Part shown: piece after piece, positions 5,421 through 32,447 of the stretch
Numbering within the stretch: the stretch's first letter is position 1
How the letters are laid out: each line of letters opens with the position of its first letter
From: a virus
Direction: 5' to 3' (one strand)
DNA: 64,000 nucleotides
Virus record (IMG/VR): IMGVR_UViG_3300030202_003049
Span: 1 to 64,000 of that record
Program-made: the position numbers and the translations under genes
Notes under the pieces: model-generated
Database searches by the model: none
What the model saw: only the letters and a program-made list of their open reading frames with translations
What the model was told of the DNA's origin: nothing

Positions 5421-5744
5421 TTAATTAAAATAACTTTCAGTCTTATGCTTCTTTAAAAACTTATATAAATCACTTCTATCTATTCCTAATAATCTAGCCA
5501 TATCTTTTTTAGTTTCACATGCAGTATAAGAATATTTTAATAAAGCATCTCTACATATCTCAGGCATTGCTTTCCATAAAGGAAAATTATATAACTTACC
5601 TCCAAGTAATCTAGATGATTGTTCTAACTTAATTGCTATCAGTTCTTCTAAAGAAATAGAGGAGAGAACATTAAGAAAGTTTTCATTCAATCTTTGTTCC
5701 CTCCTCAGTTTATTAATAATGGAGTGGTTCTTTTTATTTGACAT
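5421..5744 (-). CDS. Fis-type helix-turn-helix regulator
   Basis: A 107-residue protein whose C-terminal 35 residues form a Fis-like HTH: ALLKYSYTACETKKDMARLLGI..SDLYKFLKKH. The N-terminal 65 residues are helical and basic. Small HTH proteins of this kind occur in marine phages and are thought to be transcription factors. It sits between virion-type operons, so a late-gene activator is possible but not shown. GTTGAGGTAC precedes ATG 5744. Confidence 0.8.
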   Translation of the reverse strand: MSNKKNHSIINKLRREQRLNENFLNVLSSISLEELIAIKLEQSSRLLGGKLYNFPLWKAMPEICRDALLKYSYTACETKKDMARLLGIDRSDLYKFLKKHKTESYFN

Positions 5745-5764
5745 CAGTACCTCAACGTGTTACA

Positions 5765-6634
5765 TTAAATTGAAGTCTTTGCTTGTTCGTATTCTGGGGT
5801 AGTTGGTTCTGATAGTTCAGTTGCCAGTTCTCCTTCGAACTTATCAAAATACAACTTCATGTTTGTGATGAGGTAATCAACAAAAATCTTTTTGTCTTGA
5901 GGATCTGTTAATAAATCATAAGCATCAAGTATGTACTGACTAACTTTCTTGTGAGTAGTATAAGCCATGTTTTTACCAGTTTCATCCATTTCTTCCAAAC
6001 CAGAGCCAAAATCATCTTTTTCTTGTTCGGCAGGAGATTTTTCTTTCTCCCCTTCAATGTCCAAATCTTTTGTAGGATCAGGATCAACATCAATGTCGAT
6101 ATCCTCTTCCAATTCGATGTCGTCTAAGTTAAGATCATCAATGTCAGCCAACATTTCATCTGATGGACTGGTTGCTTCTTCGCTACCACCAGCAAGACCT
6201 GTAGGTTCGGCCATTAATGCACCAGAGTCTTGTAGGTACATGTCATTGACAAGTGCCGGCATGAGTGATTGTTTAACAGCATGGAGCATGTGTGCCCTGA
6301 ACGAGTCACGTTGTGCTTTTGATGTCGTGAGGCGTTTGTAATCTGTGCGAAGAGTGGTAATCATTTTTTTCAATACATCTTCGAGAACATTAATACCGGT
6401 AGATCGATGAGGATGCATATCAGAGAGGTCACCTTCCTTGAGAAGTGTTTGACGAATAATTTTTCTTAAACGTTCTTCTTGGACTAGTATTTCATCTTTT
6501 TGAGCCATTCTTCTAGAGATTTTTTCTCTAATAATTTTTCTTAATCGCTGCTCTTGGATAATTTCATCTCTCATTGATTCTTCCTTTAGTGTATTAAACA
6601 ATTGCTTAAATGAAGTAACTTCAACTATGCTCAT
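5765..6634 (-). CDS. Tagged virion-type protein
   Basis: A 289-residue protein. Two copies of the helical tag lie near the start (QRLRKIIREKISRRM and ERLRKIIRQTLLKEG). A helical domain with TTLRTDYKRLTTSKAQRDSF follows, then a long Asp/Glu-rich linker (residues 150-210) and a C-terminal helical domain. Frame overlap ATGA couples it to the metallopeptidase gene upstream. The tag and position suggest a capsid-associated protein; the acid tract is scaffold-like. Function unknown. Confidence 0.8.
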   Translation of the reverse strand: MSIVEVTSFKQLFNTLKEESMRDEIIQEQRLRKIIREKISRRMAQKDEILVQEERLRKIIRQTLLKEGDLSDMHPHRSTGINVLEDVLKKMITTLRTDYKRLTTSKAQRDSFRAHMLHAVKQSLMPALVNDMYLQDSGALMAEPTGLAGGSEEATSPSDEMLADIDDLNLDDIELEEDIDIDVDPDPTKDLDIEGEKEKSPAEQEKDDFGSGLEEMDETGKNMAYTTHKKVSQYILDAYDLLTDPQDKKIFVDYLITNMKLYFDKFEGELATELSEPTTPEYEQAKTSI

Positions 6635-13850: not shown

Positions 13851-14156
13851 TTATATTAATGCGAATGCATCATCGCCGTCGTCATCTTTTACCATTTTAA
13901 TCGCTTCGTTTTCAAGCATTTCTTTAAGTGCTTCTTCAAGTTGTTGTGTGAGTTTTGGTATAGCGGTTGGACTTGGTGCTGGATTTCCTGGTGAGTCATC
14001 ACCATATATTTCATCAAACAATTCTTTGAAAGTAAAATTTCCAAATTGTAATTCATCTTTTATTTCTTGTTCTAGATCCATGTGATCATCTTCACTAAGC
14101 ACGGCGGCGATTTCTTCCTTGATTATTTGCGTTATTTGTTCTAATGTAAACTTCAT
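13851..14156 (-). CDS. Tagged virion-type protein
   Basis: A 101-residue acidic protein starting with the tag MKFTLEQITQIIKEEIAAVL. A short acidic segment, TFKELFDEIYGDD, a proline-rich linker and a C-terminal helix (KLTQQLEEALKEMLENE) follow. The start overlaps the stop of the next tagged gene by four bases (ATGA). Function unknown. Confidence 0.8.
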   Translation of the reverse strand: MKFTLEQITQIIKEEIAAVLSEDDHMDLEQEIKDELQFGNFTFKELFDEIYGDDSPGNPAPSPTAIPKLTQQLEEALKEMLENEAIKMVKDDDGDDAFALI

Positions 14157-14743
14157 GATAATTCTTTCTCAATTTTGTCGGCAAGTTTTGGATTAATTTC
14201 TCTAAGATCCTGCATGGTAAAATCTAAATCTTGGGGGTTTGGAATTTGTATACTGTTTAGTGATTCTAAAAGCACTTGTGCTAATTTTATAATCTCTGGC
14301 ATTCTAAAATATCTTGGATTGAGATCGCCCGCTGTACCAGGAATCATCGCATCCGAATTCATAAAGAGACCTTTCATATAGGATTGCGTTTTTTCATCTA
14401 CACCAGATTCTTCAATCGCGTATTTCATAGTGTAATCAACCGCATTCGGGAGAAATCGTTGGTCAAAAATATCTAATGCTTTCTCATTTGCGGGTGGCCT
14501 CATTCGTGGGAGGTCTTGTAGAGCGGCTACATCTTTTGTAGGTTCACCCGTGTAACCGGTTTGATCATCAGGCTCAAAATAAGTTAAAGCGTTAGGGCTT
14601 GCTGCATCTGCGAGAAAAAACTTCACCATCATAATAGGAATTATCGGCAACGACGGACCCCTTTGATCGTTCACTTCTTCTCCCAATACAGCAGCAATTT
14701 CTTCTTTGATAATATTCATCACTTGTTCTTGTGTAAACTTCAT
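14153..14743 (-). CDS. Tagged virion-type protein
   Basis: A 196-residue protein starting with the tag MKFTQEQVMNIIKEEIAAVL. The body is helical with FDQRFLPNAVDYTMKYAIEE and no enzyme motif known to me. GGAGATTTAA precedes ATG 14743. It is the first gene of the tagged trio and lies just after a strong terminator; the leader contains TATAAATG about 50 bases upstream, which resembles a T4-type late promoter box, but this is speculative. Confidence 0.8.
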   Translation of the reverse strand: MKFTQEQVMNIIKEEIAAVLGEEVNDQRGPSLPIIPIMMVKFFLADAASPNALTYFEPDDQTGYTGEPTKDVAALQDLPRMRPPANEKALDIFDQRFLPNAVDYTMKYAIEESGVDEKTQSYMKGLFMNSDAMIPGTAGDLNPRYFRMPEIIKLAQVLLESLNSIQIPNPQDLDFTMQDLREINPKLADKIEKELS

Positions 14744-15014: not shown

Positions 15015-15659
15015 TTATGCTTCGGGCTGCATCTCGGTGAACTGCTCACCCAACTCGGCAAGCATCCACTCGGGAACGTCGGCATCCTCGGCATCGTCGT
15101 ACCCCCCGTCTACGGTAGCGGTGCGCTGGGCTTCGTCGGCAATCTCTTGCAACTTGCGAGCCTTGACTTCAGCGATAGGCTCAGGCTTGACACAGCCACG
15201 CCCAGTGAACTCGGCTTCAAAGGTATCGTAGCGGTCGTCACCAACGAGGATCACGCTGTCGATAGAACGGTCAAGCAGCCACAACTCCTTTTCTGACTTG
15301 GAGCCGAAAGAGATACAGTCAGCAATCTGGCGTAGTGTCTCAGTGACGAAACCACCAAGGCCAAACTTAGCGACACGCTCAACGTCGAAACGCAAGGTAT
15401 CGATTTGCTCACACTGAAGCAGGGTAATACCGGCACCTCCCATAACGCCATTGAAAAGAACGTAGCAGTCACCGTGGAACATAGAGTAAGCAGCATTGCC
15501 ATTATCGCGCACGCTCTGAGCAGGGTAACGTCGGTGTTCAAGAACCTCGTCAATGGTATTGGTGATAAGGGTACGTGCTTCCACACGGTCCTCGATGCTG
15601 ATAGCAGCACGTCGGTTAGCAAGTTCGTTAGCGATGAAAGTTTCTACTGAGTTAGGCAT
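15015..15659 (-). CDS. Unknown early-region protein
   Basis: A 214-residue protein starting MPNSVETFIANELANRRAA with AAGGAGAAATC before ATG 15659. It contains a Gly-rich central stretch (LFNGVMGGAGITLL) and a basic/acidic helical C-terminus (EVKARKLQEIADEAQRT). Base composition is richer in GC than the left module. It is the last gene of the early region and has its own promoter. No family recognised. Confidence 0.8.
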   Translation of the reverse strand: MPNSVETFIANELANRRAAISIEDRVEARTLITNTIDEVLEHRRYPAQSVRDNGNAAYSMFHGDCYVLFNGVMGGAGITLLQCEQIDTLRFDVERVAKFGLGGFVTETLRQIADCISFGSKSEKELWLLDRSIDSVILVGDDRYDTFEAEFTGRGCVKPEPIAEVKARKLQEIADEAQRTATVDGGYDDAEDADVPEWMLAELGEQFTEMQPEA

Positions 15660-15897: not shown

Positions 15898-16151
15898 GTG
15901 TTTTTTGTTACTTTTCTCACTTTTTTTGTCCTCCACGATAATCCACGTTCTAACTGTATTCTCACAATCGCGCTATCATACCCTCCCCTAAGAGACGGAA
16001 GAAAATAGTAGGTGCTGGGAACCATAGGCCTTGACCACAGGGGCAAAAGCACGGGGAGTCATTAGGGGCCTTGCACGATCCCCAACACCGCTCCGTTGCA
16101 TCCGCACGGAACCACACGGTTCATTAGATAGGAGAATAATGAAAAAAAATG
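15898..16151. other. Gene-free structured segment
   Basis: No convincing ORF on either strand. Possible stems include GGTG.TGGG near 15994 with CCCAACACC near 16080, the repeat GGCCTTG (about 16027 and 16067), and AACC/GGTT near 16111. It could hold structured RNA, an origin or a regulatory region. Confidence 0.4.
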
Positions 16152-16180
16152 TTGACAAAATCTGCCGATAATGTTAGCCT
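16152..16180 (+). promoter_or_regulatory. Plus-strand promoter of a candidate RNA gene
   Basis: TTGACA at 16152-16157, 17 bp, TAGCCT at 16175-16180 with TGT extension. It is the only good promoter found on the plus strand. Confidence 0.6.
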
Positions 16181-16186
16181 GAACTA

Positions 16187-16379
16187 TTTACTTATGTAAT
16201 AAGCGATTGGCATCATTCTTGCGCCTGTTACACAGGCCATCGGGCGGTACTCACACAATACACACAGTCCCCCACTGCATCCACCGCTCCCTCTCAGACC
16301 CACAAAGCCTACACGGGTTCACACACGGGTCTTTTTTGTTCTCTCCTGTCAGCATTTGCTCTTGACAGGGTTTTTTTTT
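16187..16379 (+). ncRNA. Candidate plus-strand non-coding RNA
   Basis: Transcription from the promoter at 16152-16180 would give an RNA of about 150-190 nt before one of two terminators. No ORF of note lies inside. Internal pairing is visible: CGATTGGC near 16203 with GCCATCG near 16237, GCCTG/CAGGC inside that stem, and two copies of ACACGGGT near 16311 and 16323. It runs against the minus-strand operon ending at 16431. No RNA family recognised; a regulatory RNA or 6S-like mimic are only guesses. Confidence 0.5.
16345..16379 (+). terminator. Plus-strand intrinsic terminator
   Basis: CCTGTCA (16345-16351) pairs with TGACAGG (16363-16369) over an 11-base loop, followed by nine T. Only the plus strand has the T run. 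A weaker AGACCC/GGGTCT stem with six T lies at 16296-16336. Confidence 0.75.
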
Positions 16380-16430
16380 CTTTGCTTGCCCGTCACACAG
16401 GCGCTTGCAGGCGGGTGGGGTAGCCGGGTA

Positions 16431-16646
16431 TCAGTCCGGTAGGCCATACTCCGTTGCGGGGTCGTTTGGTCTGATGAAATACAGCATAGAGTAAGGTAGG
16501 TCAATCTGTTCTCCTGAGGTTACTACGTTTAGGGTCACCATACCCGCCTGTTCATCTACTCTAACTATCCTACCAGCGATTATCGTTCCTGTAGTGATAA
16601 TGTGCTCTAACTTGAGTATGGCTTGTTGTCCATAAAATATTTTTAT
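16431..16646 (-). CDS. Small beta-rich protein with ATA start
   Basis: An open frame of 71 residues (KIFYGQQAILKLEHIITTGTIIAG..., ending EYGLPD) follows GGAGGACAC. The only codon at a sensible distance is ATA (16644-16646), a rare start; an ATG at 16633 is out of frame and stops early. The strand pattern (TIIAGRIVRVDEQAGMVTLNVV) looks SH3-like. Either a true ATA start or a base error could explain it. It ends a four-gene operon. Confidence 0.55.
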   Translation of the reverse strand: MKIFYGQQAILKLEHIITTGTIIAGRIVRVDEQAGMVTLNVVTSGEQIDLPYSMLYFIRPNDPATEYGLPD

Positions 16647-22826: not shown

Positions 22827-23888
22827 TTACTTCTTGGTGGCTAACACTTCCATCATGAACTCCTTGACAGTCGGCAGGTCAGGACCGAGATCAACTTTGT
22901 GGATACCACCGGCATTCTCGATAGCCTTTTCGCCACTGGTGATGTGCTTCCACAGGTTCATCGCTAACTCAGATGGCAACTGGACCATGTACGTGGCAAT
23001 GTTGACACGTTGGTTCTCGTCTAGTTCGGCATCGAAGCACTTTTGCTGTACCATACTCTCGATAAGAGCGTTGTGGTCGTTGATCTTGAAGTCAACAACA
23101 AGGTCGTGCTTGCCGTCATCAATGATGTCCTCTGGGGTAACGATGGCCTTGTAGTTATCAACAAAGTCACGGAGAGCAACGGCAGCCTCGAAGCCGACAA
23201 AAGAACTGGCAACGTGGTACAGAGTTGGGGTCGCTTCGATTTTGCCGAGACCAGCGAGGGCCTTGTCCAATCGCTCCCAAGAACGACGAGACGGATAGAC
23301 CTTGTTAGGCTCGTAATCATCGGTGTGCTCAAGGTGCTGGTGATTGTTGTTGATGAAGTCCCAAACAACTTGCGATACACGACCATCAGCCCAAGAGAGC
23401 CAGTCCTCGATAGTAGGGGACACGTCGAACACGGTGTAACGGTCTAGTTCAGCAGGGTCCATTTCACCAACCTGATACTGAGCACCGTGTTCACCACCAT
23501 TGACGGCAGCGAAGATAAGGGTGTCGGGGTGCAGTCTCTGACCAGCAATCTTGCGACTGTCGCACAACTCGAAGATACCTTGACGTACCTCCATCGTAGC
23601 ACGGTCAACCTCATCCAAGAACAGGATGACCGCTTCGTTGCAAGCGGTGGCAAGCCATTCTGGTGGTAGCCAAGTAGTGACATTGCCCTCGACCTTGGGC
23701 AGACCAAGCAAGTCACCCTCAGTCATCTGAGAAGCACGTCGTTCTACGACAGGGAGATCACGCTCTTCAGCATACTGATAGACGATGGTAGACTTACCGA
23801 TACCGTGACGGCCACGGATAAGTACAGGGTAGCGTGCATCAGTGATGACAGGCAGGACATTGAGCATAGTTTTGAAGTCGATTGACAT
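22827..23888 (-). CDS. MoxR-type AAA+ ATPase
   Basis: A 353-residue AAA+ protein. Walker A GRHGIGKS (26-33), Walker B VILFLDEVDRA (87-97), sensor-type AAVNGGE and arginine-containing ELCDSRK are visible. GDLLGLP (59-65) and ATTWL-type loops are typical of the MoxR branch. It hydrolyses ATP to remodel partner proteins and usually works with a VWA protein, here the next gene. CGCGAGGTTAC precedes ATG 23888. Role in the phage unknown; remodelling of host complexes early in infection is a reasonable guess. Confidence 0.9.
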   Translation of the reverse strand: MSIDFKTMLNVLPVITDARYPVLIRGRHGIGKSTIVYQYAEERDLPVVERRASQMTEGDLLGLPKVEGNVTTWLPPEWLATACNEAVILFLDEVDRATMEVRQGIFELCDSRKIAGQRLHPDTLIFAAVNGGEHGAQYQVGEMDPAELDRYTVFDVSPTIEDWLSWADGRVSQVVWDFINNNHQHLEHTDDYEPNKVYPSRRSWERLDKALAGLGKIEATPTLYHVASSFVGFEAAVALRDFVDNYKAIVTPEDIIDDGKHDLVVDFKINDHNALIESMVQQKCFDAELDENQRVNIATYMVQLPSELAMNLWKHITSGEKAIENAGGIHKVDLGPDLPTVKEFMMEVLATKK

Positions 23889-32261: not shown

Positions 32262-32447
32262 TTAGTCCCTGTATCCAGGGGAGTAAGGTATTAGTTCATA
32301 AGCATATTCCAAGACATGCTCGTCTACTTTAGCGTAAAACACGAGATAGATAAGGCCATCAAAGTCATTATCATCAACCATAACTTCGGTAACTAAACCA
32401 ATGCCTAGGTCAGGATCAATAACAAGGTCTCCTATCTCAAACTCCAC
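32262..32447 (-). CDS. GDLV-family protein
   Basis: A 61-residue acidic member: MEFEIGDLVIDPDLGIGLVT, LIYLVFYAK, YELIPYSPG. Isolated from the main runs. The upstream gene ends just before it, and GGGCTGATGTGG precedes ATG 32447. Confidence 0.85.
   Translation of the reverse strand: MEFEIGDLVIDPDLGIGLVTEVMVDDNDFDGLIYLVFYAKVDEHVLEYAYELIPYSPGYRD

Follow-up and report, generated by a model that had tools for sequence, protein, structure and literature searches.

Gene organization and the noncoding gap

The window analysed here comprises bases 1-64,000 of an IMG/VR virus record of 64021 bases, from an uncultured marine phage. Each of the 41 ORFs of 150 aa or longer in the whole window is encoded on the minus strand, which bears out the initial annotation of nearly all of it as minus strand coding. 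The encoded products include GroEL, a DnaE-type polymerase and a DnaB-like helicase. A MoxR-like protein (22827-23888) has more than 200 relatives in viral contigs, many of them on contigs of 130-205 kb, and among annotated phages only distant relatives with less than 60% identity. In two relatives of 191 kb, the coding strand is nearly uniform along the whole record.

A gap of approximately 530 bases, 15898-16430, lies where a gap of about 500 bp had been reported before the operon ending at 16431, and we found no gene in it, with the reservation that prediction of small genes is imperfect. The gap is bounded by a minus strand ORF ending at 16431 and by the minus strand promoter of the next operon (15897-15869). 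The ORF (16431-16646, minus strand) is the last of the upstream small-gene operon, and its product shows weak SH3/RimP-like similarity. It has a good Shine-Dalgarno sequence, GGAGG, before what appears to be an ATA start; the homologue in the relative L091 starts with ATG. The ATA may be genuine, as a rare start codon, or may stem from a sequencing error.

Candidate promoter and terminators on the plus strand

The phage promoter, TTGACA-N13/14-TG(A/T)TA, is common to 34 minus strand sites and is followed by CATT in most of them. The plus strand of the window holds one perfect phage promoter, at 5738, compared to which the site at 16152 in the gap is much weaker. The perfect promoter (5738-5767), TTGACA-N14-TGTTACATTA, is opposed to all large genes and enters the gene at 5765-6634 from its 3' side.

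The candidate promoter in the gap (16152-16180, plus strand) consists of TTGACA (16152-16157), a 17 nt spacer, TG (16172-16173) and TAGCCT (16175-16180), with a predicted transcription start at approximately 16187. The -35 is perfect and the -10 is poor, with three of six matches. Using simple scores, the weights of which are our own for promoters and terminators alike, it is the best general sigma-70 site in the gap, with 14.0 against a 95% line of 12.7 for base-shuffled gaps. On the phage's own matrix it scores 5.7, whereas the range is 16-37 for most genuine minus strand sites, and shuffled 64 kb strands reach 8-16 with their best sites. The extended promoter of the initial annotation is thus present as far as TTGACA, spacing and TG are concerned, but it is weaker than claimed, given its -10 and its score on the phage matrix.

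Two plus strand terminators, also reported in that annotation, were recovered with hairpins and U runs. The first (16296-16337, -10.9 kcal/mol) is the hairpin AGACCC...GGGTCT with a U run, and the second (16345-16379, -9.8 kcal/mol) is the hairpin CCTGTCA...TGACAGG followed by a G and nine U. Both tandem terminators stop just short of the 3' end of the operon.

Among 1000 dinucleotide-shuffled gaps, a promoter as good as the 16152 site occurred in 0.1% and a terminator with a U tail in 0.2%; the score and U run of the second terminator were reached in none, and the ordered promoter-terminator pair occurred in none. The thresholds were the observed values, so these figures flatter the case. On the plus strand of the 64 kb window there is no second ordered pair. 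It should be noted that a scan with stricter hexamers listed neither the promoter at 16152-16180 nor the terminators at 16296-16379. It is unlikely that the promoter and the terminators are accidental together, and a predicted plus strand transcription unit in this one genome is statistically supported.

A possible, if unlikely, alternative is that no functional plus strand RNA is made, the promoter being a chance match and the terminators being remnants or blocking stray antisense transcription into the operon. On the phage matrix the 16152 site is no better than sites in shuffled 64 kb strands, a shuffled 64 kb strand holds about three strong terminators of this kind, and L091 has neither feature. 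Against this, finding both features together in the gap by chance is very unlikely.

Properties of the candidate RNA

From the promoter and terminators we infer a candidate counter-transcript at 16187-16379 on the plus strand, of approximately 150 nt if ended by the first terminator or 190 nt if ended by the second. A counter-transcript of 150-190 nt from the gap is credible as a prediction. The candidate RNA would be C-rich, and its 3' end would fall short of the operon's stop codon at 16431. The fold proposed in the initial annotation, that of 16187-16379, was only mildly unusual on the plus strand (z -2.0, both terminator hairpins included); the minus strand gave z -1.1.

An RNA polymerase-binding RNA had also been considered possible. 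6S RNA forms a long hairpin that opens into a bubble at its centre. The candidate RNA resembles 6S RNA in being noncoding and of comparable length; it differs in that we found no long bulged hairpin in 16187-16379 and no match to any Rfam family. A search of the window with Rfam 15 gave a tRNA elsewhere as the sole match at gathering score, and in the gap weak sub-threshold matches only, even at permissive thresholds. The suggestion thus finds no support here.

A trans-acting regulatory RNA, either a base-pairing sRNA or one binding RNA polymerase, is in our view very improbable. The nine U of the second terminator and a CA-rich, little-structured middle, as in many sRNAs, are consistent with such an RNA, and one gene start, near 32447, pairs with it at -45.1 kcal/mol. 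However, this best target is at the edge of the range of shuffled RNA but still within it (lowest -45.4), mean pairing to 93 start regions of the window was -23.0 compared to -23.2 for shuffled RNA, and the Rfam and 6S comparisons speak against it as well. An anti-Shine-Dalgarno role of the candidate RNA was not supported either; its pairing to phage translation starts was no greater than that of shuffled RNA.

Comparison with a close relative and minus strand hairpins

The only close relative found to hold the locus is L091, in which the neighbouring proteins are mostly 56-93% identical. Searches of viral contigs with the flanking proteins encoded at 15015-15659 and 14153-14743 gave no match. 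Three further searches with flanking proteins gave the L091 contig alone, as did a search with the conserved DNA motif described below, and a search with a VWA-like protein gave L091 and 11 loci lacking both the phage promoters and the gene context. DNA searches of annotated phages, both near and distant, gave no match, and a DNA search of 15 relatives with the whole record returned short, chance-level pieces only.

The initial annotation had named a lack of conservation of the stems in related genomes as grounds for its refutation. In L091, the sole comparison, the plus strand promoter and terminators are absent; the antisense strand of its gap holds no promoter above chance and no terminator. 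The plus strand unit is therefore not conserved in the one available case and fails this check there. The annotated plus strand RNA gene is supported as a promoter-terminator pair matched in none of the shuffles of the gap, but it does not extend to L091, the single genome with which the candidate RNA itself was compared.

The structure that is conserved between the window and L091 is on the opposite, minus strand. When aligned in gene orientation, both gaps contain CGTGTGGTTCCG, a small hairpin and then a long hairpin that differs in sequence. In the window, CGTGTGGTTCCG and the small hairpin A (GUUCCG/CGGAGC) are located at 16090-16118 on the minus strand, with 12 bases identical in L091. 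Hairpin B (16011-16089, minus strand) has a 15 bp stem, GGUGUUGGGGAUCGU/AUGGUUCCCAGCACC, with four G-U pairs; a plus strand RNA would have A-C mismatches in their place. Folding of 15990-16145 gave z -3.66 for the minus strand and -0.58 for the plus strand. The 250 bp adjacent to the candidate RNA had been described as structured, and this is correct for the minus strand only.

These observations bear on a second alternative, in which the functional RNA is on the minus strand and the plus strand features are incidental. The double hairpin at 16011-16118 would belong to the 3' tail of the upstream operon mRNA, or to a separate minus strand RNA, and would stabilise or process it. The strand difference in folding, the G-U pairs that are possible on the minus strand only, and the arrangement of motif and hairpins common to L091 despite the differing long hairpin all favor it. 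In addition, the L091 gap folds at -37.2 kcal/mol on the gene strand and at -23.1 kcal/mol on the other. On the other hand, only two sequences are compared, and the L091 gene strand fold, with z -1.7, is not itself unusual. There is no above-chance minus strand promoter in the gap and no U run after the hairpins, and such an RNA would thus need read-through from the operon. We regard this explanation as unlikely.

The same gap in a wider phage group

A gap is found at the same position in L091 and in L004, L033, L007, L009, L010 and L011. In the latter six, the small-gene operon is separated from the next promoter by a long gap, which contains two to four copies of the repeat CTTKACATAAYTAT in gene orientation. 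The copies are mostly spaced 28-60 bp apart (often 28 or 37-39), and up to approximately 160 bp. The clusters are located, for example, at 15021-15128 in L007 and at 17340-17419 in L004. We found no copy of CTTKACATAAYTAT in the window or in L091.

In the 191 kb genome G006, all four exact copies of CTTKACATAAYTAT are in the gap, and one site with one mismatch is found at 38.6 kb. G003 has three copies in the gap and a second cluster near 100.3-100.5 kb, and G007 has several clusters. The GC skew of G003 and G006 did not switch clearly at the gap, but in one-directional genomes such a result counts for little in either direction. Among genome contigs, a scan for the MoxR-like protein found only four distant relatives, and the three that were checked all lacked the repeats. 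On the antisense strand of the relatives' gaps, no promoter was clearly above shuffles (that of L004 was just below the 95% line) and no terminator had a clear U run.

The CTTKACATAAYTAT array resembles a set of binding sites at an origin or control region, and the near restriction of the repeat to the gap in G006 likewise suggests a replication or regulatory locus. We regard the clusters as a candidate origin or regulator-binding array of phages of approximately 190 kb. The repeats in the relatives are evidence on the locus as such and do not speak to the mechanism in the window itself.

Comparison with known systems

The OOP RNA of phage lambda is a 77 nt RNA made from the promoter pO against the early operon (PMC3640518). 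The candidate RNA would likewise be short, with a predicted promoter and terminators of its own (16152-16180 and 16296-16379, at sequence level only), opposed to an early phage operon and near the presumed replication region. OOP pairs with coding mRNA (cII-O), whereas the candidate RNA would end at approximately 16379, before the stop at 16431, so that only the 3' tail of the operon mRNA could pair with it.

RNA-based replication origins occur in mycobacterial prophages (PMC7157519). These, and the RNA I/RNA II pairs of ColE1 type, resemble the present case in that a noncoding RNA comes from a phage or plasmid control locus. An RNA I/RNA II origin uses two overlapping, opposed RNAs, one of them as primer, and the prophages are another phage group, whereas here there is a single candidate RNA. 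The plus strand unit is plausible; the minus strand of the gap has no promoter above chance, though transcription of that strand by read-through from the operon is possible.

Noncoding origins bearing iterons are also known, for example the PLE origin (PMC8263062). An iteron origin has an array of direct repeats to which an initiator binds. The likeness lies in the two to four direct repeats, often 28-60 bp apart, that L004, L033, L007, L009, L010 and L011 carry in their noncoding gap at this position. The difference is that the window and L091 lack a direct-repeat array and that some relatives have repeats elsewhere too.

A putative control locus

We tentatively suggest, at less than even confidence, that the gap, which separates the end of the small-gene operon from the promoter of the next operon, is a noncoding control locus with a possible short cis-acting counter-transcript. 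The iteron-like repeats at the same position in relatives indicate that it is probably a replication origin or a regulatory site, and we consider a regulatory or replication-control site more likely than a new kind of RNA gene. In brief, a short unit opposed to every gene would start from the promoter at 16152-16180 and give an RNA from approximately 16187 to approximately 16337 or 16379, ended by the two tandem terminators just before the operon stop at 16431. The RNA, if made, would most likely act in cis as a counter-transcript, either by pairing with the tail that read-through adds to the operon mRNA or by interfering with transcription through the locus, in a manner resembling lambda OOP or the counter-transcripts of plasmids. 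We infer transcription, pairing and any replication role of the locus from the features above. The lack of the plus strand promoter and terminators in L091, the lack of repeats in both the window and L091, the additional repeats in G003 and G007, the GC skew without a clear switch and the poor -10 all speak against this suggestion.

A broader speculation, which we consider rather improbable, is that one noncoding locus controls replication or the early operon throughout a lineage of marine phages of approximately 190 kb with near-unidirectional genes. Its members would use non-homologous cis devices, repeats in some and hairpins with a counter-transcript here, and the counter-transcript would represent a novel phage RNA that has no known relatives.

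Should the gap prove to be an origin or master control site, it would provide a concrete handle on how replication starts in a large group of uncultured phages with near-unidirectional genomes, and the repeat motif makes this reading testable across many contigs. The counter-transcript, if real, would add one more phage RNA directed against an operon of the same phage; such RNAs are known, though thinly sampled.

Other sequence features of the relatives

C-rich, G-poor tracts of TACCC repeats follow directly on the operon's last small ORF in L004 (16830-16900), L011 (15015-15110) and L007 (14325-14400). These tracts resemble Rho-utilisation sites, and the window has a short version after the operon at 16431. 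In L004, L007, L010 and L033, many promoters have palindromes such as GGACATTTTTTGTCC that overlap the -35 or lie immediately upstream of it.
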